55,142 bases of DNA. It comes from an uncultured Microbacteriaceae bacterium. GTDB lineage: Bacteria; Actinomycetota; Actinomycetes; Actinomycetales; Microbacteriaceae. How positions within the stretch are numbered: position 1 is the first letter of the stretch; the number at the start of each line of letters is the position of its first letter. A model generated the notes under the pieces. That model was given only the letters and a program-made list of their open reading frames with translations, did no database searches and had not been told where the DNA came from. Below are positions 41,552 through 54,853 of this stretch, piece by piece. The stretch is taken from NCBI GenBank assembly GCA_937872445.1, contig CALMSL010000200.1, forward strand, positions 1-55,142, read 5' to 3'. The position numbers and the translations under genes are program-made.

Positions 41552-41593
41552 AGTACCGAGTGGAGGCCCGCTTGCGTGCCCCCACTCGGTACT
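41552..41593 (-). terminator. terminator-like hairpin after rplA
   Basis: Perfect 12-bp arms AGTACCGAGTGG (41552-41563) and CCACTCGGTACT (41582-41593) with an 18-nt loop, 33 nt past the rplA stop. No T-run follows, so termination efficiency is uncertain. Confidence 0.6.
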
Positions 41594-44733: not shown

Positions 44734-46668
44734 GTGTTCACTACACGAATTCGACGGACTGGAAACTCAGTCGGGAAATCCATCATCACCAGGTCGACCG
44801 CCGTTCTCGGCACCATCGGCATCATCGGCGCTCTCGCCGTGGCGGCACCCGCCGCAGCGAGCGCCACAACCACCCACGCGACGTGGGCCCAGGGCAAGTT
44901 CCTCTCCGGCTCGCTCGCCGGCATCAGCCTCGACACCATCGCCGGCCTCGCACCGGCCACGGCCAGGAACAGCGGAACGCAGGGCACGCAGGAGGTCGTG
45001 GACCCGCTCGGGGTCAGCCTGCTGGGAACCCAGCCCGTGGACGTCGGCGCCATCCGGGTCAGCCCGGATGCGGTGATCGACACCCAGACGCAGGGCGGGG
45101 CGCTCTCCCAGTACGCTCGCGCCGAGAAGACCGGCCTGGCCATCGGCGCCAGCGGTTCCGTCGGCGAGGGCGGGGCCATCGGACCGAATGAGTCCAACCC
45201 GTCCAACGCCCTGACGCTCACGCTCGACCAGCTGATCGGCAGTTCCTACAGCTCCGTGGTCGCGGACCTGAAGCTCGCGGTCCGCGCCATCGCCGCGAAT
45301 GCGCGGGGCACGCTCCAGTCGGTCGATGGCGACTACTACATCGACGGGCTCACGCTCACCTTCACGAGCCCCGCACTCGCCGGAATCTCGGCAACCATCA
45401 CGAAGGCTGTCGGGGATGCGGACGCGAAGCTCGACGCTCTCACCGGACGGAACGGCGAACTCGCGGCAGCACTCAACGCCGCGCTGGTCGCCGCGAATCC
45501 CGCACTGAGCATCGCGGGAAATGCCACGGTGTCGGTCACGCTCAGCCGCAATCTGCAGGCTGCCGTTGCCGAACTGCTCGCGGCCACATGGGGCGGGTCC
45601 GGAGTGAGTTTCAACATCACGACCGGACGGGTGAGCATCGACCTCAACAAGCTCATCGGCGACAACCTCAACAACCTGCCGGTGAACTCGGAGGTTCTCA
45701 CGAGCGCGAATGTCGCCAGAATCGTGTCGACGATTGCGGGCAACGTCACGGAGCTCAGCGATCAGGTGCTCGCCCGCGTCAACGCCGCACTCGGAAACGC
45801 GAAGCTGGACGTGGATGTGGACCTGAACGTGCTCACCGACCAGGCGCCCATCCTCGGCCAGACCTGCCAGTACCAGGACAGCCGGGGGAACATCCTGAGC
45901 GACGTGCTCGGCAAACTGCTCGGCACCCTCATCTGCACGCCGACCAGCACGGCACTGCCCGCGCTGAAGACGTCCGCGGCGGTTGACGTGCACGGCACGG
46001 TATCGCAGATCCTGAACGGTACGGCACCGGCGACGGCCAGCGCGCAGGTGCTCGGTGTTCCGCTCGCGCTGAGCACCGAACGGATCCTGGCGCCGCTCGG
46101 CCAGGTCGTGAAGCACCGCATCTACGATGCCGGCGGCATCGTTACGGGGCTTCGCGGCCTCCTCGACGGCCCGTTGCTCGCCCAGGCGAACTCGTGCCTG
46201 CTCGGATCGACCGGCATCCAGGCGTTGCTGTCGAACATCCTCTCCATCAGGGTCAACCTGCAGGAGACGAGACTGAGCGGCGGCGGACTGTCGGTGGCCA
46301 CCAACACGGTGTTCACGGAGACGGCGATGCGGGTGGCGGTGGCGAAATCCACTCGCTCCGGCGGGCTCACCACGCTGAGCCTCGCCTCCGCCTCGGTCGC
46401 CCCCACAGTGGTCAGCAGCGTTCCCGGCGAGCCGGGAACCACCGGCGGGCCCGGCACGCCCGGCGGACCCGGAACCACCGGCGACCCGGGAGACCCGGGC
46501 ACCGTGCCGGCCGGTGAAGTGGGTGCGGAAAGCGTGACCGCCGGCTCGCTCGCCTACACGGGCGTCGCCATCGGCTCGGCGATCGCCGCACTGCTTGGAT
46601 TCCTGATCACCGGCGCATGGCTCGCACGAAAGGGCTATCGGCGAAACCACCCAACGCTCGTGCCCTAG
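44734..46668 (+). CDS. wall-anchored surface protein, choice-of-anchor G type, with collagen-like stalk
   Basis: 644 residues. Signal peptide (~18-43, ending AAPAAASA), a ~520-residue beta-rich domain of choice-of-anchor G type, then a Gly-Pro-Thr stalk with collagen-like G-x-y triplets ([16 protein letters not shown] ... DPGDPGT, ~565-592), and a C-terminal sorting signal LAYTG, hydrophobic helix and KGYRR tail. The LAxTG motif points to a class E sortase rather than LPxTG sortase A. GTG 44734 follows AAGGAAGG by 8 nt. It should be displayed on the cell surface; ligand unknown. Confidence 0.85.
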
Positions 46669-46690
46669 GCCGAGAGGTCGCCGGTGACGG

Positions 46691-46720
46691 CGCGACCGGG
46701 GTTTCCCGACCCCGGTCGCG
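46691..46720 (+). terminator. terminator after the surface-protein gene
   Basis: 11-bp GC stem CGCGACCGGGG / CCCCGGTCGCG with an 8-nt loop, followed by TTCGTGCTTT, starting 22 nt past the stop codon. Confidence 0.75.
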
Positions 46721-46742
46721 TTCGTGCTTTACGCTGGAACCT

Positions 46743-47945
46743 GTGACCAGTGAACACGCACGAATCTCACACCGCATTGCCGCCATCGCCGAGTCGGCGA
46801 CGCTCAAAGTCGATGCGAAAGCGAAAGCGCTGAAAGCTGAAGGCCGGCCCATCATTTCCTACGCGGCGGGTGAGCCGGACTTCGTGACGCCGTCGAACGT
46901 CGTGGATGCCGCATCCGCTGCCGTCCTCGACCCGCGCAACTACCGCTACACCCCCGCGGCCGGGCTGCCCGAGCTGCGCGAGGCGATCGCGGAGAAAACC
47001 CGCAGGGACAGCGGCCTCGCGGTCGACGCATCCCGGGTCATCGTCACGAACGGTGGAAAGCAGGCCGTGTACCAGTCGATCGCGACCGTCGTCGACGACG
47101 GGGACGAGGTCATCCTGCCGTCGCCGTACTGGACCACCTACCCGGAGGTCATCAAGCTCGCCGGAGGGGTGCCCGTCGAAGTGTTCGCCGGTGCCGACCA
47201 GGGCTACAAGGTGACGGTCGAGCAGCTGGAGGCGGCGCGCACCCCCAGAACGAAGCTGCTCATTTTCGTGTCGCCGTCCAACCCGACGGGTGCGGTGTAC
47301 TCGCCGCAGGAGACCACCGCCATCGGCACCTGGGCGCTCGAGCACGGCATTTGGGTGATGACCGACGAGATCTACCAGAACCTCGTGTACGACGGCGTGA
47401 AGGCCGTCTCCATCGTGGAGGCCGTGCCGGAGCTTGCCGAGCAGACTCTGCTCGTGAACGGTGTCGCCAAGAGCTACGCGATGACCGGATGGCGGCTCGG
47501 CTGGATGGTCGGGCCCGCGGATGCCATCAAGGGCGCCGCGAACATGCAGTCGCACCTCACCTCCAACGTGTCCAACATTTCGCAGCGGGCGGCGCTCGCG
47601 GCGCTCACCGGCCCGCAGGAAACCGTCGAGCTCATGCGGCAGTCGTTCGAGCGCCGCCGGAACGTCATCATCGAGGAGCTGAACAAGATCGAGGGCGTCC
47701 ACGCGCCCATGCCGCACGGCGCGTTCTACGCGTATGCGGATGTGACGGCGCTGCTCGGGCGCAACTGGGGCGGGGTGAAGGCGACGACGTCGCTCGAGCT
47801 CGCGGATCTCATCCTGGAGCAGGCGGAGGTCGCGGTGGTGCCGGGCGAAGCGTTCGGACCGAGCGGATACCTGCGGCTCTCCTACGCGCTCGGCGACGAG
47901 CCGCTGCTCGAGGGCATCCAGCGCCTGCAGCGCCTGTTCAGCTAG
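46743..47945 (+). CDS. PLP-dependent aminotransferase class I/II (aspartate aminotransferase type)
   Basis: 400 residues. Typical motifs are [50 protein letters not shown], the PLP lysine in [16 protein letters not shown] and the C-terminal LRLSYAL Arg. It belongs to the Igamma subgroup of AspAT. GTG 46743 is 7 nt after TACGCT, consistent with leaderless expression; no Shine-Dalgarno is seen. A strong 22-bp hairpin starts 21 nt past its stop. Confidence 0.93.
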
Positions 47946-47966: not shown

Positions 47967-48025
47967 CTGAGGGGTCCCAAAGTGCCCTTCCGCACGCCTT
48001 TAGAGGGCACTTTGGGACCCCTCAG
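47967..48025. repeat. long palindromic element 1 (22-bp perfect arms)
   Basis: Arms 47967-47988 (CTGAGGGGTCCCAAAGTGCC...) and 48004-48025 are perfectly complementary over 22 bp, loop 15 nt. Its TGAGGGGTCC and AAAGTGCCCTTCC segments recur in the element at 54301. It may double as a terminator for the aminotransferase gene, though no T-run follows. Confidence 0.85.
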
Positions 48026-48080
48026 CGGTGTTGTGGGTAATTAGGGAGGGTGAGCCCCTGCGTGTGAAAGCCTTTCGGCC

Positions 48081-48980
48081 ATGCCTCGGATTCCCGTCCC
48101 GATAAGCGTGCTTTCCGCATCCTTCACGACACGCCAAGGGCGCGCGGCCGGCCTTGGTAAGCACCGAATGCGTGGCACAGATCTCGACAAGCCGTTTCAT
48201 GGCATCCGCACCATCGGTCCTGCGACCACGATTGACGAACTCGCGCGGGCATTCCAGCAGGGTGCAACAGAATGTGCGTTCTTCTGCGGCATCACTGCCG
48301 CGATGATCCTTCGAGTTCCACTGCCGCAGCGCCACGAGCAATCACGGCTTTTGCATGTCGCCGTCCCGGCGCCTCGTCGAGCGCCGAAAGCTCGCGGCAC
48401 GATCGGCCACAAGTTCCACATCAGAGACGACGAGGTGCGTGAGTGGCACGGGCTGGGGGTTACGACGCCGGAACGCACCTGGTGCGACCTTGCCTCGACC
48501 CTGTCGGTTCCCGACCTGGTTGCCGCGGGAGACTATCTGATCCATCATCGGCTCCCGTTCACCACGGCCGAGCGCCTCGAAGAGGCGGTCGCGGGTTACG
48601 CTGGTCGCCGCGGCAAGCCCGCATTGCGTGCCGCCCTCCCGCTTCTCAATGACCGATCCGAGTCGCGACGGGAGTCGCTCCTTCGCGTTCTCGTCGTGAC
48701 CGCGGGCATTCCGGGCGCCGCGGCAAACCAGTGGATCACGACATCCGGCGGCTACCGATATCGAGGCGACCTCGTCATCCGCAGGAAGAAGGTCGTGATC
48801 GAGTACCAAAGCCGCTTCCACGACGAGTCGAAGGAGTTCCGCGCGGACATGACGCGGATCTCGCGCCTTGAAGCCGATGGCTGGTTCGTGATGCAGGTCA
48901 ACAACGATGACCTGAGCAACCCGCGCGACCTGGCGCAGCGCATCCGCACTGTGCTCCGAGGTCGTCTGAGCGTGGCGTGA
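48081..48980 (+). CDS. DUF559/Vsr-like endonuclease-domain protein with N-terminal AbiEi-like region
   Basis: 299 residues. The C-terminal ~110 residues show the PD-(D/E)xK fold typical of DUF559-type proteins: ESLLRVLVVTAGIP, YRGDLVIRRKKVVIEYQS (D and E), HDESKEFRADMTRISRLEADGWFVMQV. The N-terminal part resembles the AbiEi antitoxin-like region common in these actinobacterial proteins (VTTPERTWCDLAS). These genes are numerous and variable in actinobacteria and of unproven role. The stop TGA (48978) is the first triplet of a palindromic element. Confidence 0.75.
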   Translation: MPRIPVPISVLSASFTTRQGRAAGLGKHRMRGTDLDKPFHGIRTIGPATTIDELARAFQQGATECAFFCGITAAMILRVPLPQRHEQSRLLHVAVPAPRRAPKARGTIGHKFHIRDDEVREWHGLGVTTPERTWCDLASTLSVPDLVAAGDYLIHHRLPFTTAERLEEAVAGYAGRRGKPALRAALPLLNDRSESRRESLLRVLVVTAGIPGAAANQWITTSGGYRYRGDLVIRRKKVVIEYQSRFHDESKEFRADMTRISRLEADGWFVMQVNNDDLSNPRDLAQRIRTVLRGRLSVA

Positions 48981-49034
48981 GTTGCGATTTTCGGCCCTTC
49001 GCGCGTGCAGGGAAGGGCACAAACTCGCAACTCA
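48978..49034. repeat. long palindromic element 2 (23-nt arms, 3 mismatches)
   Basis: Arms 48978-49000 and 49012-49034: outer TGAGTTGCGA / TCGCAACTCA perfect, inner CGGCCCTTC / GAAGGGCAC with two mismatches, loop 11 nt. The inner half and loop match the element at 54301 almost base for base, whereas the outer arms differ in sequence but remain paired. Confidence 0.85.
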
Positions 49035-49140
49035 GTGGATGTGCGACGGGTAATGGCGGCGAGGGTCAACCGGTCGGTGGATGCGGAATCCCACCGGATG
49101 ACCGCTACCGCGCGCACCCCGCGGCGACCACGATGGTGGC

Positions 49141-50025
49141 ATGACAAATTCTGACAGCGTCGTGAGCGTGACCGACCTCCGCAAAAACTATGGTGGCGTG
49201 ACGGGGCTCGACGGCGTGACCTTCGACATCCGCCGCGGCGAAACGTTCGCCCTGCTCGGGCCGAACGGCGCCGGCAAATCCACCACGATCGAAATCCTGG
49301 AAGGGTACCGCGACCGCACGAGCGGCGACGCCAGCGTGCTCGGCATCGACCCGCAGCGGGGAGGCATCGACTGGAAAGCACGGATCGGCATCGTCCTGCA
49401 GAGCACGGGTGAGAGCGGAAACGTGACCGTCCAAGAGCAGCTAACCCACTTCGCCGGTTACTACCCGAATCCCCGTGATATCAACGAAGTTATTGACGCC
49501 GTGGGCCTGCGAGAGAAGGCAAAGACCCGCATCGGCAAGCTTTCCGGCGGTCAGCGTCGGCGCGTGGATGTCGCCCTCGGCATCATCGGGCGCCCCGAGC
49601 TGCTGTTCCTGGACGAGCCCACCACGGGATTCGACCCTGAGGCGCGCCGGCAGTTCTGGACGCTCATCGACGGCCTGAAAGCCGACGGGACGAGCATCCT
49701 GCTCACGACCCACTACCTCGACGAGGCGGCCCACCTCGCCGACCGCGCGGCGGTCATCAATGGCGGCCGCATCGTCGACATGGGCACGATCAGCGAGATC
49801 GGCGGCGCGGAAGCCCGCGTGCCGGTCGTCCGCTGGAACGACGGCAGCACGAAACGGGAGCAGCGCACGCACGAACCCGCGGCGCTGGTCGCGCACCTTC
49901 GCACCGACCTGGGTGGGGAACCGGACGGCCTCGAGGTCATCCGTCCCAGCCTGGAAGACATCTATCTGAACCTCGTCGGCGCGAGCCGCGCCGACGCACT
50001 CACCACAGAGGCGGCACTCGCATGA
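49141..50025 (+). CDS. ABC-2 exporter ATPase (DrrA type)
   Basis: 294 residues. Walker A GPNGAGKST (40-48), signature LSGGQRRRVDVAL, Walker B LLFLDEPTTGFDPE and the H-loop LLTTHYLDEAA; the ~80-residue C-terminal tail is typical of DrrA-like ATPases. It energises the permease encoded by the next gene, overlapping by 4 nt. The pair sits before a two-component system, an arrangement common for exporters that remove antibiotics or peptides. Confidence 0.92.
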   Translation: MTNSDSVVSVTDLRKNYGGVTGLDGVTFDIRRGETFALLGPNGAGKSTTIEILEGYRDRTSGDASVLGIDPQRGGIDWKARIGIVLQSTGESGNVTVQEQLTHFAGYYPNPRDINEVIDAVGLREKAKTRIGKLSGGQRRRVDVALGIIGRPELLFLDEPTTGFDPEARRQFWTLIDGLKADGTSILLTTHYLDEAAHLADRAAVINGGRIVDMGTISEIGGAEARVPVVRWNDGSTKREQRTHEPAALVAHLRTDLGGEPDGLEVIRPSLEDIYLNLVGASRADALTTEAALA

Positions 50026-50900
50026 CAACCCTGACCACGACCAACGGCACGACCGGCACCGGCCCGGCGCAGCACACCGACACGCTCGGCCGCGCCATCC
50101 GACTCGGCATCTCCCGCATCGGCTACGAACTGAAGGTGTATGCCCGCCAGGGCGACTCCGTGTTCTTCACGTTCCTGTTCCCGATCCTCATGCTCTCGAT
50201 CTTCGCGGTCGCGTTCAGCGGCATGGGCAACCTCGGCGCAGCTCCCGACGGCACGGGCGGCATCTCCTGGGCGGCGTACTACCTGCCCGGAATGATCGCG
50301 GCCGGGATGCTCCTGAGCGGCGTGCAGAACCTCGGCGTCGACATTGCCACCGAGAAGGGCGACGGCACGCTCAAGCGCCTCGGCGGATCCCCGCTGCCGG
50401 TGATCTCCTACTTCATCGGCAAAATCGGCATGGTGTTTTTGAGCGCCATTGTGCAGGCGGGGCTCATCCTTCTGGTCGCGCGCGTCGGATTCAACGTCGA
50501 GCTGCCCACCGATCCGAACAAGTGGCTGCTGTTCGCCTGGGTGTTCCTCCTCGGCGTGATCACAAGCTGCGTGCTCGGGATCGCCCTGTCGGCACTCCCC
50601 CGCAGCGGAAAGAGCGCAACGGCGGTCGTCATCCCGATCGTGCTGCTGCTGCAGTTCATCTCGGGCGTGTACCTGCAGTTCACGATGCTGCCGGAGTGGT
50701 TGCAGAACTTCGCAAGCGTGTTCCCGCTCAAGTGGATGGCGCAGGGCATGCGCGCGGTGTTCCTCCCGGAATCCTTTGCCACGCTCGAACAGGGCGGCAC
50801 CTGGAACCTTCCGTGGGTGGCGATCATCATGGGCGTGTGGTTCGTGGTGGGGCTCCTGCTCACCCGGATGACGTTCCGCTGGATCCGCAAAGACACCTGA
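50022..50900 (+). CDS. ABC-2 type permease (DrrB type)
   Basis: 292 residues with six predicted membrane helices (first around 42-65 in FFTFLFPILMLSIFAVAF). The central LSGVQNLGVDIATEKGDGTLKRLGGSPL is the ABC-2 motif that follows the second helix. It forms the channel with DrrA-like ATPase. The histidine kinase gene starts 24 nt downstream. Confidence 0.9.
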   Translation: MTTLTTTNGTTGTGPAQHTDTLGRAIRLGISRIGYELKVYARQGDSVFFTFLFPILMLSIFAVAFSGMGNLGAAPDGTGGISWAAYYLPGMIAAGMLLSGVQNLGVDIATEKGDGTLKRLGGSPLPVISYFIGKIGMVFLSAIVQAGLILLVARVGFNVELPTDPNKWLLFAWVFLLGVITSCVLGIALSALPRSGKSATAVVIPIVLLLQFISGVYLQFTMLPEWLQNFASVFPLKWMAQGMRAVFLPESFATLEQGGTWNLPWVAIIMGVWFVVGLLLTRMTFRWIRKDT

Positions 50901-50924
50901 GCCGCAATCAGGGAGAATCGACTG

Positions 50925-52076
50925 ATGGAGAACCCGAAGTGGTGGCATGTGGCGGTGGGAGTCGTCACCGTCGTGCTCACCGTGATGCTCTTCTTCATCG
51001 AGAATCTCAGCCCGGTGCGGATCGCGGGCGCGCTTGCGGCGCTCGCCGTGTTCGCGGTCAGCTGGTACACGATCGGGAGGCTCGCGTGGACGCGCCGCTG
51101 GGCCGCCGTCGCATTCCTCGTCATCATGATCGTGAGCGCCGGGGTCGCGGCAAGCTTCTACCCGGCGATGGCGGTCATCCAGTGCATCGCGTTTCCGCTG
51201 GTCTGGGTGATCACGCGGGAGTTGCGTGACGCCATCCTCGCGAACATCGCCCTGGCACTGTCGGTGGGCATCGGGCTCGCGATCAGTTTCGGGCTCACCC
51301 CGGAGTCGGCGCTGCAGGCGGCATTCACGGCAGCGCTGTCCCTCGGCTTCAGCATCGCCCTCGGATTGTGGATCACCCGCATCTTCGACCTCGCCGCGGA
51401 ACGGCAGGAACTCATCGACGACCTCCGCGCCGCTCAAGGTCAGCTCGCGGCGATGCACAGGGACGCCGGCGTCACGAGCGAACGGGAACGTCTTTCCCGG
51501 GAACTGCACGACACGATCGCGCAAAGCCTCACCGGGCTCGTCATGCTCGTGCAGGGCGCGCGCCGCGACTTGGATGCCGGCGACAGCGAGGCGGCGAAGG
51601 CCGCACTCGCCATGATCGAGGAGAACACACGGGAGACGCTCGTGGAGACGCGCTCGCTCGTCGCATCCGGAGCGGCTGTGGAGGTGCCGGGCGGATTCGT
51701 CCCCGCGCTTCACCGACTCGCTGAACGCTTCGAGCGCGAGACCGGCGTGACGGTTTCGGTGGCCGCGAGCGACATCCCCGCGCTCGACCGCGGAAGCGAA
51801 GTGGTGCTGCTGCGGTGCACGCAGGAGGCACTCGCGAACATCCGGAAGCACGCGAATGCGGACACCGTGACGCTCACGGCAACGGGGAACGGCCGCGACG
51901 TGGAGTTGCGTGTCGCCGACGACGGCGTGGGGTTCCGGGATGGCCAGAACAGCGGAGGTTTCGGGCTCGCCGGAATGCGGGAGCGGCTCGCCCTCGTCGA
52001 CGGCTCCCTCGACGTGGAAACCAGCGACGACGGCACGGTCCTGACCGCGCGGGTGCCCGCCGTGGTGCCGGCATGA
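50925..52076 (+). CDS. NarL-family sensor histidine kinase
   Basis: 383 residues. Six closely spaced hydrophobic helices (10-150) without a large external sensor domain, then a HisKA_3 box with phosphorylated H195 (RERLSRELHDTIAQSLTG), and a HATPase domain with N-box CTQEALANIRKHANA and G-boxes VADDGVGF and GGFGLAGMRERL. Such intramembrane-sensing kinases beside ABC exporters often monitor envelope stress or the exporter itself. The response regulator gene overlaps by 4 nt. Confidence 0.93.
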   Translation: MENPKWWHVAVGVVTVVLTVMLFFIENLSPVRIAGALAALAVFAVSWYTIGRLAWTRRWAAVAFLVIMIVSAGVAASFYPAMAVIQCIAFPLVWVITRELRDAILANIALALSVGIGLAISFGLTPESALQAAFTAALSLGFSIALGLWITRIFDLAAERQELIDDLRAAQGQLAAMHRDAGVTSERERLSRELHDTIAQSLTGLVMLVQGARRDLDAGDSEAAKAALAMIEENTRETLVETRSLVASGAAVEVPGGFVPALHRLAERFERETGVTVSVAASDIPALDRGSEVVLLRCTQEALANIRKHANADTVTLTATGNGRDVELRVADDGVGFRDGQNSGGFGLAGMRERLALVDGSLDVETSDDGTVLTARVPAVVPA

Positions 52077-52696
52077 GCCGCACGCGCATCCTCGTGGCCG
52101 ACGACCACCCGGTGGTGCGCGGGGGAATCGTGGCGCTCCTCGGCACGGCGGATGACCTGGACGTCGTGGGTGAAGCCGCCGACGGCCTCGAGGCGGTTCG
52201 TCTCGCGCTCGAACTGGAGCCGGATGTCGTCCTCATTGACCTGCGGATGCCCGGCATCGACGGGGACGAAGCGACCGCTCGGATCCTCGCCGAGCGGCCC
52301 GGCATCCGAGTGCTCGTGCTCACCACCTACGAGAGCGACGACAGCATCCTCACCGCGATCGAGGCGGGCGCGAGCGGGTACCTGCTGAAGGCGGCCCCGC
52401 AGGAAGAGCTGCTCGCCGGCATCCGCTCCGTCGCGCGCGGCGAGGTTGCGCTCGCACCGCGCATCGCCGCGCTTCTCGTGAACCGCGTGCAGCGGCCCGC
52501 CGCGCCGAGCCTCAGCCCCCGCGAAACCGAGGTGCTGAAACTTGTGGCGCAGGGCCGCAGCAATCCGGCGATCGCGAGCGAACTGTTCCTCTCCGAAGCG
52601 ACCGTGAAGACGCACCTGCTGCACGCGTTCGAGAAACTCGAAGTCAATGACCGTACGCGCGCGGTGACGAGGGCAATGGAGTTGGGGCTGCTCTGA
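52073..52696 (+). CDS. NarL/LuxR-family response regulator
   Basis: 207 residues. Receiver domain with acidic pocket D10/D11, phosphorylated D56 (VLIDLRMPG) and the T/K switch (LTTY, LLKAAP); LuxR-type helix-turn-helix at ~143-205 (LSPRETEVLKLVAQG ... SEATVKTHLLHAFEKLEV). ATG 52073 overlaps the kinase stop (ATGA). It probably controls the drrAB-like genes. Followed by a 30-bp-arm terminator. Confidence 0.95.
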   Translation: MSRTRILVADDHPVVRGGIVALLGTADDLDVVGEAADGLEAVRLALELEPDVVLIDLRMPGIDGDEATARILAERPGIRVLVLTTYESDDSILTAIEAGASGYLLKAAPQEELLAGIRSVARGEVALAPRIAALLVNRVQRPAAPSLSPRETEVLKLVAQGRSNPAIASELFLSEATVKTHLLHAFEKLEVNDRTRAVTRAMELGLL

Positions 52697-52717
52697 GCTG
52701 GCTCTTGTTGGGGAGTC

Positions 52718-52802
52718 CGGTTCTGTAGAAAAAGGGTGTGCCGGCTCCGCCCATGGATGCCCGCCGAACCCCGAGCCGGCACACCCTTTTTCTACAGAAC
52801 CG
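52718..52802. terminator. bidirectional terminator with 30-bp perfect arms
   Basis: Arms 52718-52747 and 52773-52802 are perfectly complementary, loop 25 nt. Within them AAAAAGGGTGTGCCGGCTC pairs with its complement so that a TTTTT run lies after the inner stem on both strands. It sits between the convergent response regulator and murB genes. Confidence 0.88.
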
Positions 52803-52853
52803 CCCGCCATGACACATCCGCGGTGCCGAGCTCAGTGCAGTGGAGGTTGGCGG

Positions 52854-53906
52854 CTAAAGGGTGAGGCCGACGAACTGGGGCTCGGGCTGCAGCAGGATGC
52901 CGAACCGGTTCATGACCTGCAGGTGAATGTAGCGGGCCAGTTCGGCGATGTCGTTCGCGGTGGCGCCGCCGCGGTTCGTGAGCGCAAGCGTGTGCTTGGA
53001 GCTCACGGCAGCACGCGATCCGGGCAGGGCGAAGCCGCGGGAGATACCGCTGTGTTCGATGAGCCACGCGGCGCTCAACTTCACGTCGGACTCTGGCGCG
53101 TCCGGGTCGAGGATCCAGCGCGGGGCATCCCGCGGCAGGCTGCGCGCGAAATTCTCCGCCACGATCGGGTTCGTGAAGAACGATCCGGCGCTCACCGAGT
53201 CGGGGTCGTCGGGGTCCAGCACCATGCCCTTCGACGCGCGCAGCCCGAGAACGGCGCTGCGCACATCCGCAAGCGGCACCCTTTCGCCCACCGGCACGTC
53301 GAGCGCCGCCGCGAGCTGGTCGTAGGCGATCGGGGCGCTCAGTTCGCTCTCGCTCAGGTGCAGGTCGAGGGACAGCACGACGCCGCGGCGCCCCCGCTTG
53401 AGCGATGAGGTGCGGTAGCCGAGCTCCAGGGCGGATGCGGGAAGCGTGACGCGCTCCCCGCTCGCCTCGTCGAGGAAGTCCACCGACACGAGAACCTCGG
53501 AGAGCTCCTGGCCGTACGCGCCGATGTTCTGCATGGGGGCGGCGCCCGCAGAACCGGGGATTCCGGACAGCGCCTCGATGCCGGACAGACGGTGCTCAAC
53601 CGCGTGGGCGACCACGGCATCCCAGGGTTCGCCGGCCAGCACGCGCAGGATCGTCTGGCCCCCCGCCGCATCCACCTGGTCGATGCCGCGCGAGAGCACC
53701 CGGATGACCGTGCCGTCGAATCCGTCGTCGGCAATGAGAAGGTTCGAACCTCCGCCGAGCGCGAACCACGGTTCGCGGCGCGACCAGGTGTCGAGGGTCG
53801 CGTCGACCAAATCCACGGTGTTGCCCGGCGAGAGCAGTTCGCGCGCGGCGCCGCCCACGTGCAGCGTCGTGAGCTCGGAGAGTGGCTGCGACGGCTTCTC
53901 GGTCAT
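52854..53906 (-). CDS. murB: UDP-N-acetylenolpyruvoylglucosamine reductase
   Basis: 350 residues, type I MurB. FAD-binding segment LGGGSNLLIADDGFDGTVI, IEALSGIPGSAGAAPMQNIGAYGQE, catalytic Ser in AGSFFTNPI and catalytic Glu in LQPEPQFVG are all present. It makes UDP-MurNAc for peptidoglycan in the cytosol. Overlaps the MaoC-type gene by 4 nt (ATGA), a conserved hadAB-murB arrangement in this group. Confidence 0.96.
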   Translation of the reverse strand: MTEKPSQPLSELTTLHVGGAARELLSPGNTVDLVDATLDTWSRREPWFALGGGSNLLIADDGFDGTVIRVLSRGIDQVDAAGGQTILRVLAGEPWDAVVAHAVEHRLSGIEALSGIPGSAGAAPMQNIGAYGQELSEVLVSVDFLDEASGERVTLPASALELGYRTSSLKRGRRGVVLSLDLHLSESELSAPIAYDQLAAALDVPVGERVPLADVRSAVLGLRASKGMVLDPDDPDSVSAGSFFTNPIVAENFARSLPRDAPRWILDPDAPESDVKLSAAWLIEHSGISRGFALPGSRAAVSSKHTLALTNRGGATANDIAELARYIHLQVMNRFGILLQPEPQFVGLTL

Positions 53907-54376
53907 AGGCGGATGCGCAACTGGGCTTTGCCCAGCACGGTTTCGTCCTCGAATGTGACAGTCAGGTCGATTCTGGCGCTGTCGTCGTCGACGGCGCCGA
54001 CCTTCGCGACCACGTGCACGAGTGCGCCATCCGTCGCGTCCACGAGCACCGGGCGGGTGAAGCGCACCTGGTAGTCGACGACGCGGCCGGGGTCGCCGAG
54101 CCAGTCGATGACGGGTTGTGCGGCGATGCCCATGGTGAGCATGCCGTGGGCGAGCACGCCGGGCAGGCCGACGCTTGTGGCGACGTCGTCGCGGTAGTGG
54201 ATGGGGTTGAAGTCGCCGGAGGCGCCCGCATATCGCACGAGCGAGTCGCGCGTGAGGTGGAAGTCGCGCTCGGCGACGATGTCTCCAACGGTCAGATCCC
54301 CGTGAGGGGTCCCATTCGGCCCTTCGTAGGGTGCAGGAAGGGCACTTTCGGACCCCTCACGGCCTGCGGGGCTCAT
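53903..54376 (-). CDS. MaoC-like hot-dog dehydratase subunit (HadB type)
   Basis: 157 residues. The hydratase-2 motif is YAGASGDFNPIHYRDD (catalytic D and H), followed by GLPGVLAHGMLTMGIAAQPVIDWLGD. It should pair with the upstream HadA-like subunit as a heterodimeric 3-hydroxyacyl dehydratase. The normal family start is near DLTVGDIV (residue 27); residues 6-25 are encoded by a palindromic element (54301-54361) lying in frame after ATG 54376, which forms ATGA with the upstream stop. An internal start downstream of the element cannot be excluded, but none with a good ribosome-binding site is seen. Confidence 0.88.
   Translation of the reverse strand: MSPAGREGSESALPAPYEGPNGTPHGDLTVGDIVAERDFHLTRDSLVRYAGASGDFNPIHYRDDVATSVGLPGVLAHGMLTMGIAAQPVIDWLGDPGRVVDYQVRFTRPVLVDATDGALVHVVAKVGAVDDDSARIDLTVTFEDETVLGKAQLRIRL
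54301..54361. repeat. long palindromic element 3, in frame inside the HadB-like gene
   Basis: Arms 54301-54325 and 54337-54361 pair at 20 of 25 positions (12 outer bp perfect, CGTGAGGGGTCC), loop 11 nt. Its right arm matches element 1 (TGAGGGGTCC, AAAGTGCCCTTCC) and its left arm and loop match element 2 (TTCGGCCCTTCG, GTGCAGG). Confidence 0.85.
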
Positions 54377-54813: not shown

Positions 54814-54853
54814 AGGCACGGCACCAATCCTATCGACGGGCTGTGGGGGAACA

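Follow-up and report, generated by a model that had tools for sequence, protein, structure and literature searches.

Palindromes bracketing a Vsr-like nuclease gene in a Microbacteriaceae genome as candidate parts of a selfish DNA unit

A stretch of 55,142 nucleotides from an uncultured Microbacteriaceae bacterium (contig CALMSL010000200.1, hereafter the window) contains three large hairpins with a common core, one of them translated within a HadB-like gene, and raises the question of what such palindromes are and what maintains them in the chromosome. The original prediction treated the copies as free-standing, a view that has to be revised: a nuclease gene lies between copies 1 and 2, and the hairpins probably serve as the recognition sites and ends of a selfish unit that includes this gene. 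The features concerned are:

46617..47945, + strand: aminotransferase gene, to the left of the unit (Pfam PF00155, E 2.1e-71)
47967..49035, + strand: palindrome-nuclease-palindrome unit of about 1.07 kb, between the aminotransferase and ABC transporter genes
47967..48025, no strand: palindrome copy 1, TGAGGGGTCC class (inverted-repeat list and covariance model)
48081..48980, + strand: nuclease gene (299 aa) with a C-terminal DUF559/Vsr-like domain, the preceding part matching AbiEi-type profiles
48977..49035, no strand: palindrome copy 2, TGAGTTGCGA class (inverted-repeat list and covariance model)
49141..50025, + strand: ABC transporter ATP-binding protein gene, right neighbour (open reading frame and translation; family name read from the sequence)
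53903..54376, - strand: HadB-like MaoC dehydratase gene (MaoC, E 2.1e-22)
54302..54360, no strand: palindrome copy 3, TGAGGGGTCC class, solo, in frame at HadB codons 6-25

Hairpins of two arm classes

Scanned from end to end with a covariance model (filters off, both strands), the window shows hairpins at 47967-48025, 48977-49035 and 54302-54360 with scores of 53.8 to 69.2 bits; of the 27 matches listed, the one that comes after these three has 13.9 bits. Because these three were among the seven sequences used to build the model, the scan mainly rules out a further copy in the window; without any model, they rank second to fourth of 17 inverted repeats (arms of at least 14 nt, distance at most 60), and the three hairpins with a common core are found either way. 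Nothing in Rfam reached its gathering threshold between positions 46000 and 55142. Copy 1 ends 57 bp from the nuclease start codon, a typical spacing for the 5' palindrome of such units, and the first bases of copy 2 supply the nuclease stop codon.

The claim that the outer arms had changed together is borne out by the seven own-genome copies, in which paired changes, the share of pairing and covariation all stand above those of shuffled alignments: 12 of 23 pairs changed on both sides (a number reached by 4 of 500 shuffles), pairing holds in 88.2% of cells (73.7% on average after shuffling, with 0 of 500 reaching the observed value), and the covariation score was reached by 0 of 500 shuffles. 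Pairing was 36-55% in a control in which the copies were slid by one to three columns. The palindromes of this genome form two covarying arm classes, which stand as adjacent pairs at some places among the palindrome-model matches. For the pair at C49, comparing G000 (the own draft genome) with G003 and G002 is uninformative, as the downstream G002 sequence does not correspond.

Eight such hairpins are present in the own draft genome, and matches to the palindrome model occur in 20 of the 60 genomes searched, the own genome included; the family is dispersed as predicted, and the objection that the genome might hold only the three window copies fails. A solo palindrome of G003 is absent from the window near position 54842. 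Within genomes, the arms are conserved and the centre is variable, and several families have weaker positions inside the arms. G007 has many palindromes and one weak nuclease match; G048 also has many, and a matching nuclease was present in none of the three matches examined out of four. No nuclease matching the arm class of copy 1 was found, and it is probably copy 2 that is cognate to the window nuclease.

Nuclease genes with palindromic ends

The window nuclease matches Pfam DUF559 with an E value of 1.1e-5 (25.7 bits, cut-off 20.6); 16 of 30 members match this family and 24 of 30 match MTES_1575 (E ≤ 0.01). Among the domain residues E198, D230, E241, H247 and D256, all except E241 (conserved in at least 90%) are invariant in 30 of 30 homologues, and the conserved E, D, H and D may correspond to the EDxHD motif. 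AbiEi-type profile matches occur in 11 of the 30 members (best E 4.2e-13), and in the window nuclease they span about residues 88-202. A weak profile match to chain 3r3p (I-Bth0305I) covers the nuclease core only (E 0.021), and opposite the conserved histidine that chain has a tryptophan. No fold is claimed for the window nuclease, because a single-sequence AlphaFold model had a mean pLDDT of only 35.7. With regard to origin, tblastn found no match to this protein in a phage collection; plasmid matches comprised three records, all from Arthrobacter, and in the one examined (Arthrobacter sp. ERGS1:01) the gene for a hypothetical protein, WP_054009319.1, has matching palindromes at both ends.

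The association of nuclease and palindrome extends across the order. Ninety related loci, the strongest among the matches listed (one best from each of 30 genomes and 60 more), include five that are short or contain stop codons; 56 of the remaining 85 full-length genes have an end palindrome, and these palindrome-bearing genes occur in 29 of the 35 contributing genomes. The other 29 genes have none at the threshold used, one of them (L223 in G013) having two palindromes that fall just beyond the distance limits. Both ends are palindromic in 30 of the 85, and 28 of these 30 have a left palindrome whose arms match those of the right one (score of at least 14, the cross-locus 99th percentile being 12); the two units with palindromes of differing class are that of the window and its orthologue in G003. 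Most end palindromes (62 of 87) are 55-66 bp long. In 32 of 40 cases, the 5' palindrome ends 51-100 bp ahead of the start codon, the start being taken as the in-frame start nearest the profile match and not curated; in 27 of 47, the 3' palindrome starts no more than 15 bp from the stop codon. Under equal criteria, end palindromes were found at only 1 of 77 HadB genes (three of 80 named loci were too short and were dropped) and at 2 of 25 DUF559 genes outside the order. By density, 89 hairpins lie by the nuclease gene ends in a nominal 62.1 kb, compared with nine in the other 223.8 kb of these 90 loci, the nine including both of those at L223 and one on the 5' side of L239; 110 HadB loci have 41 in 369.5 kb.

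Arm sequences differ between nucleases and are unrelated across many genera. Similarity of the full protein and similarity of the arms are significantly correlated (Mantel r 0.27, 56 loci), but r falls to 0.13 (54 loci) without two orthologues from G003, and without these neither the N-terminal nor the C-terminal part alone correlates significantly; the middle part correlates best of the three compared (r 0.19). Because the correlation is weak and partly carried by close orthologues, co-evolution is not leaned on here. On a tree of 109 proteins, the presence of palindromes requires 26 changes, whereas 200 shuffles required 36.3 on average and never fewer than 28; presence is clustered only moderately, and the tree has many open forks.

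Pattern searches were run for three arm families, each cognate to a nuclease in the genome concerned, and for every one of them solo copies turned up away from the nuclease gene. Counting complete hairpins only, G028 has three solo and two flanking copies, and G058 has two solo and one flanking, with none for the reversed-pattern control; the arms of another nuclease encoded by the own genome are found as one solo copy in G000 and two in G003, with two flanking copies in each (control 0), and this second-family pattern gave nothing in G002 and in G006 (Terrimesophilobacter mesophilus, which has a nuclease gene at C1:1690009-1690908). G050 has eight solo and two flanking copies when up to two mismatches are allowed (control 1).

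The site of the window unit itself was compared among relatives by using the aminotransferase gene as an anchor. In G007, of the same genus, there is neither palindrome nor unit, and the ABC transporter gene directly follows the aminotransferase gene; in G002, also of the same genus, there is a single degenerate palindrome (23.7 bits). Across related genomes, this locus occurs in an empty, a solo and a full state; it is uninformative in G001, G004, G013 and G015, where other sequence follows. No target-site duplication is visible at two filled/empty pairs, the flanks of which have diverged.

A candidate selfish unit and other readings

These observations suggest a unit composed of a palindrome of about 60 bp, a spacer that in most cases measures 51-100 bp, a gene for a Vsr-like (DUF559-type) nuclease of about 300 aa, and a second palindrome that would overlap or adjoin the stop codon, each nuclease lineage having its own arm sequence. 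The nuclease may recognize its palindromes and the unit may spread by homing or transposition. Most likely, a nuclease dimer would bind both conserved arms and cut between them, where the sequence is variable; if a palindrome-nuclease-palindrome copy then served as the repair template, a solo site could become a full unit, and deletion between two palindromes could turn a full unit back into a solo site, although the direction of change between the empty, solo and full states is conjectural. Solo palindromes might be homing sites not yet occupied, remnants left where a unit was lost, or non-autonomous copies. A point against the homing model is that both palindromes of a full unit are intact, which should expose the unit's allele to a homing enzyme of the classic kind; its sparing is unexplained. 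Also weighing against the selfish-unit reading are the 29 genes with no end palindrome at the threshold used, the differing palindrome classes of the window unit and its G003 orthologue, the palindrome-rich genomes G048 and G007, the weak correlation between protein and arm similarity, the weak match to I-Bth0305I and the absence of a visible target-site duplication.

Among other readings, the palindromes could be operators that are bound by the AbiEi-like part of the protein, which would repress its own gene, the solo copies being regulon or chromosome-marking sites and nothing being mobile. AbiEi antitoxins are proteins that bind to inverted repeats, 11 of the 30 members match an AbiEi-type profile, the middle part of the protein correlates best with the arms, and the usual place of the 5' palindrome ahead of the start codon would suit an operator. 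We nevertheless consider this reading unlikely: a 3' palindrome with matching arms has no obvious role in repression, the presence of palindromes differs among close genomes even within coding sequence, and the nuclease residues are kept in all 30 members.

Still less probable is that the palindromes are MITE- or REP-like and moved by an unrelated transposase encoded elsewhere, with the nuclease as a passenger. The excess of solo over flanking copies in G050 and the neighbouring pairs of two arm classes, which resemble REP arrays, would fit such a scheme, but Y1_Tnp (PF01797, the RAYT family and the sole transposase family searched) was found in only 3 of the 60 genomes (G018, G039 and G057, the first two of which also have palindrome-model matches), none of them of the same genus, and a passenger would hardly account for one nuclease family with end palindromes of unrelated arms in many genera. 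Transcription terminators or mRNA-stabilizing hairpins that border these genes by chance are very improbable: such strong hairpins would affect RNA and many 3' palindromes do start close to the stop codon, but no terminator-like site (a hairpin followed by a T run) is present at any of the three window copies, the HadB and DUF559 controls have almost no end hairpins, and the match of left and right arms, the genome-specific arms and the dispersal would be left unexplained.

The preferred reading, a selfish nuclease unit, has partial counterparts among known systems. Rickettsia palindromic elements, roughly 100-150 nt long, also lie in frame within protein genes, and to that extent the parallel originally drawn with them stands; any further likeness does not, as the palindromes described here are shorter and linked to a nuclease gene. 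The AbiE toxin-antitoxin system resembles the unit in that part of the nuclease protein matches AbiEi profiles, but here there is a single gene with a nuclease domain, and no second (AbiEii) gene lies between the window palindromes. To our knowledge, the enzyme type differs from that of any known palindrome system.

REPtrons and TIRtrons (PMC2817692, PMC3733652) consist of a gene between two palindromes, with many solo copies elsewhere and palindromes specific to the enzyme. The unit resembles REP/RAYT in having an enzyme gene with two flanking palindromes and dispersed copies, but its enzyme is Vsr-like rather than an HUH/Y1 transposase, and its palindromes are about 60 bp long with no common GTAG/GTGG head (by eye, among 76 copies listed). 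The EDxHD homing enzyme I-Bth0305I dimerizes on a target nearly 60 bp in length, according to a review (PMC3943268), and most end palindromes are of similar length; by the weak profile match above, its nuclease core may be related. It differs in being encoded by an intron-borne gene that splits the target, whereas the genes considered here are free-standing on the chromosome between whole palindromes. The GC clusters of yeast mitochondria are likewise palindromic and mobile, and a role for intron-encoded endonucleases in assisting them has been proposed (PMC4478555); they differ in being flanked by short direct repeats, and the parts of that article on the clusters describe no dedicated nuclease gene between them.

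The nuclease-palindrome unit has the look of a kind of selfish DNA that has not been described before, and searches of an open-access library showed no account of such a unit; more cautiously placed, it may be a variation on the REPtron arrangement. Only tentatively do we propose a new class as a whole, in which a Vsr-like nuclease dimer would recognize its own palindrome of about 60 bp and whole units would thereby home into solo sites. Nuclease and palindrome would have co-diversified into many mutually blind specificities inside a single bacterial order, and solo copies would occasionally be put to use in a host protein such as HadB. If this is true, bacterial chromosomes would have a second way of maintaining palindrome families, unrelated to RAYT, and dozens of natural nuclease/palindrome pairs would be available for studying how a nuclease changes a long target. 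A class of uncharacterized DUF559 genes would also gain a testable function.

A palindrome within a HadB-like gene

The third window copy may illustrate how a palindrome is turned into part of a conserved HadB-like enzyme. The gene scores 129 bits with the HadB equivalog model, below its cut-off of 203 bits. Its ATG at 54376 overlaps the HadA stop codon, and the next in-frame ATG, GTG or TTG after codon 1 is codon 47, within the conserved domain. The palindrome occupies codons 6-25 with the frame intact, confirming what had been read from the window, and the HadB gene of a close relative (G002, 94% identical) lacks it, so the objection that all relatives might share this N-terminal sequence fails as well. 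Compared with this empty gene, the insert amounts to 72 nt (24 codons net), longer than the palindrome itself. HadB has an in-frame insertion in G000, G003 and G007. Between the window gene and that of G003, which has the same insert, there are 14 synonymous differences and one nonsynonymous difference; the insert-bearing gene is under purifying selection.

Three palindromes and a nuclease gene

An inverted-repeat search and a covariance-model scan of the window both recover the three large hairpins of the original prediction in their places. As modelled, each palindrome spans 57 bp, two arms of 23 nt around a centre of 11 nt, and all three carry a GCCCTTC-type inner block, slightly changed in copy 1.

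47967-48025, palindrome copy 1 (GGGGTC class), outer arms TGAGGGGTCC
48081-48980, nuclease gene, 299 aa with a DUF559 domain
48977-49035, palindrome copy 2 (TTGCGA class), outer arms TGAGTTGCGA
54302-54360, palindrome copy 3 (GGGGTC class), outer arms as in copy 1, inside the HadB-like gene

Pattern searches of the window's own genome (G000, a draft of 214 contigs) find seven copies, and a covariance model made from these adds one more, bringing the total to eight, each matched on both strands (16 matches). The original prediction has the two arms changing together, and 12 of the 23 base pairs are indeed doubly changed among the seven copies. None of the 500 shuffles or of the slid versions reaches their paired-cell share or covariation score; as many doubly changed pairs occur in 4 of the 500 shuffles, and as many pair types in 18.

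The nuclease gene is the only one between copies 1 and 2, which are separated by 1 kb. The same palindrome-nuclease-palindrome unit is present in genome G006 and, at another locus and with arms of the genome's own type, in G043. A profile built from four palindrome-flanked proteins matches 48 of 60 genomes, including G000. Thirty diverse members of the nuclease family all have E198, D230, H247 and D256, and nearly all have E241, as would be expected of a working nuclease of the Vsr/PD-(D/E)XK type. PDB profile matches are to 3hrl, endonuclease-like (E 9.5e-5), and weakly to a mobile intron protein, 3r3p (E 0.021), which we take to be I-Bth0305I. An AbiEi-type profile matches the window nuclease N-terminal of its nuclease domain, and the Padloc AbiEi profile matches 11 of the 30 members. 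PMC3710099 lists MTES_1575 among nuclease domains of the Vsr type.

Palindromes at the ends of nuclease genes

When the best-match locus of each of 30 genomes was scanned for hairpins, nearly all long ones lay at the ends of the nuclease gene. With 60 further loci added, the 90 loci, which are the strongest among the matches listed rather than a random sample, contain 89 hairpins near gene ends (nominally 62.1 kb) versus 9 in the other 223.8 kb; 110 HadB loci, for comparison, contain 41 in 369.5 kb. At least one end palindrome accompanies 56 of 85 full-length nuclease genes (29 of 35 genomes): 39 genes have one on the 5' side, 47 on the 3' side and 30 on both. The 5' palindromes mostly end 51-100 bp upstream of the start codon (32 of 40); 40 of the 47 3' palindromes start no more than 45 bp from the stop codon, 22 of them no later than its end. 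In two-ended units the arm sequences of the left and right palindromes agree in 28 of 30 cases (score at least 14; between-locus 99th percentile, 12), the two exceptions being the window's unit and its orthologue in G003. The palindrome score threshold was chosen after a first look, at 16 and later 14, and at the final value, used in both controls, end hairpins occur at 1 of 77 HadB loci and 2 of 25 DUF559 loci outside the order Micrococcales; the pairing is therefore not general to gene ends or to DUF559 genes.

Two nuclease genes outside the order (locus L326 of genome G206 and L335 of G094) each have an end hairpin, and the system may reach beyond Micrococcales. On a plasmid of Arthrobacter sp. 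ERGS1:01 (NZ_CP012477.1, 212960-213907, locus L411), a nuclease annotated as hypothetical, WP_054009319.1, has matching palindromes at both ends.

Passages of a review (PMC3943268) describe I-Bth0305I as a dimer whose target measures nearly 60 bp. The likeness to the end palindromes, 62 of 87 of which measure 55-66 bp, is suggestive, not proof.

Arm diversity, solo copies and filled sites

Covariance-model matches occur in 20 of the 60 genomes, including G000. Sixty stretches fetched from eleven genomes were scanned, and the 76 elements listed are alike in architecture between genomes, with genome-specific outer arms.

Outer arms of palindromes in four genomes
G007: TGAGGGGTCA
G043: GTTTCCCGTCAGTAG
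G048: TCGAACAGCGAGAAG
G015: GAGAGGCCAAAAA

Within single genomes the centre is less conserved than the arms. In G043 (seven copies used) the outer ten positions are identical, the mean for the centre is 0.56, and positions 16-17 vary within otherwise fixed arms; the contrast is smaller in G048, G015, G007 and G004 (0.79-0.89 for the outer ten positions, 0.52-0.63 for the centre). The GGGGTC class is abundant in G004 and G007. Palindromes of both window arm classes occur as neighbours, some 70-120 bp from each other, at loci L173, L174, L161, L162, L178 and L181 of G000, G003 and G004, a pairing that resembles the alternating REP units of a BIME.

The arm sequences of three families, as they occur beside nuclease genes, served as search patterns in the genomes concerned, with the reversed pattern as control. 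Complete hairpins in G028 number three solo (away from a nuclease gene) and two flanking, with six single exact arms; G058, which has the same arm family, has two solo, one flanking and three single exact arms; the control gave none in either. The family of a second nuclease of G000 and G003 has one solo copy in the former, two in the latter and two flanking copies in each (control 0), and its pattern was not found in G006 or G002. In G050, allowing up to two mismatches, there are eight solo and two flanking copies and four single arms (control 1); at one of the solo places the covariance model, too, had located a palindrome. Model-found palindromes of G043 and G015 likewise match nuclease flanks. 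G048 has many palindromes (L199-L211) and no nuclease with matching arms among the three of its four nuclease matches inspected; G007 has many (L168-L172) and one weak nuclease match. These two genomes may have lost the nuclease, or it may have diverged too far for detection.

Filled and empty sites can be compared between relatives. Downstream of the aminotransferase gene, G000, G003, G006 and G005 each carry a nuclease bracketed by palindromes, with arms that differ between G000, G006 and G005; in G005 the protein shares 44% identity with the window nuclease across 231 residues and is interrupted by an in-frame stop. G002 has a lone degenerate TTGCG-class palindrome there (23.7 bits, E 0.00013, under the hairpin threshold), and in G007 the ABC transporter gene follows with nothing between. 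Near 54842 the window lacks a solo second-family palindrome that G003 has at C2:50424.

Comparison with relatives bears out the in-frame insertion proposed for HadB: the G002 protein (94% identical; counted once with MAG contig JAHBST010000039.1) reads MSE-LTVGD, and that of the window has 25 further residues between MS and LTVGD, which makes a net difference of 72 nt. The insert is common to G000 and G003, between which the gene has 14 synonymous differences and one nonsynonymous, so the insert-bearing HadB is under selection. Since the first in-frame ATG, GTG or TTG after codon 1 is codon 47, the palindrome is necessarily translated if the gene is used. HadB of G007 has an in-frame GGGGTC-class palindrome near the same place. 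Independent gain there is a simpler reading of the sequences than loss, because the N-termini of G001, G002, G004 and G006 have no palindrome and a covariance-model scan of the HadB region of G005 detects none either.

A possible mechanism and known systems

This organisation would suit a nuclease for which its own palindrome is a two-fold site, with the conserved arms bound and the variable centre cut. A cut solo site would be repaired from a full unit, by which the nuclease would be copied in, and where the stretch between two palindromes was lost, a solo one would remain, the state of the G002 aminotransferase locus. The probable cognate palindrome of the window's unit is the right one, whose TTGCGA class is also that of the flanks in orthologous G006, and the left is of the GGGGTC class; no nuclease with GGGGTC-class arms was found among the two of four G004 nuclease matches inspected.

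REPtrons and TIRtrons, in the portions of PMC2817692 and PMC3733652 that describe them, are closest in organisation; the present units stand apart from them in the enzyme, Y1_Tnp being present in only 3 of the 60 genomes, and in having no common GTAG head, as judged by eye, in the 76 elements listed. In an open-access library without most subscription-journal papers, no paper was seen linking DUF559 or Vsr-like nucleases with palindromes, and those containing both 'DUF559' and 'palindromic' concern other subjects, as judged by title and opening of the abstract.

The window has other inverted repeats.

1656-1712, A+T-rich 57-bp palindrome, arms AACTGCAACTAAAT, of the family's length and a different sequence
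41552-41593, palindrome of 42 bp (arms 20 nt, loop 2 nt)
52718-52802, inverted repeat of 30 bp without a mismatch, loop 25 nt

The arms of neither the first nor the second were seen in the fetched loci compared. The third lies between convergent response regulator and MurB-like genes (named from their translations); its sequence is unlike the nuclease-linked palindrome families, and its arms are also present in G003, at locus L025.
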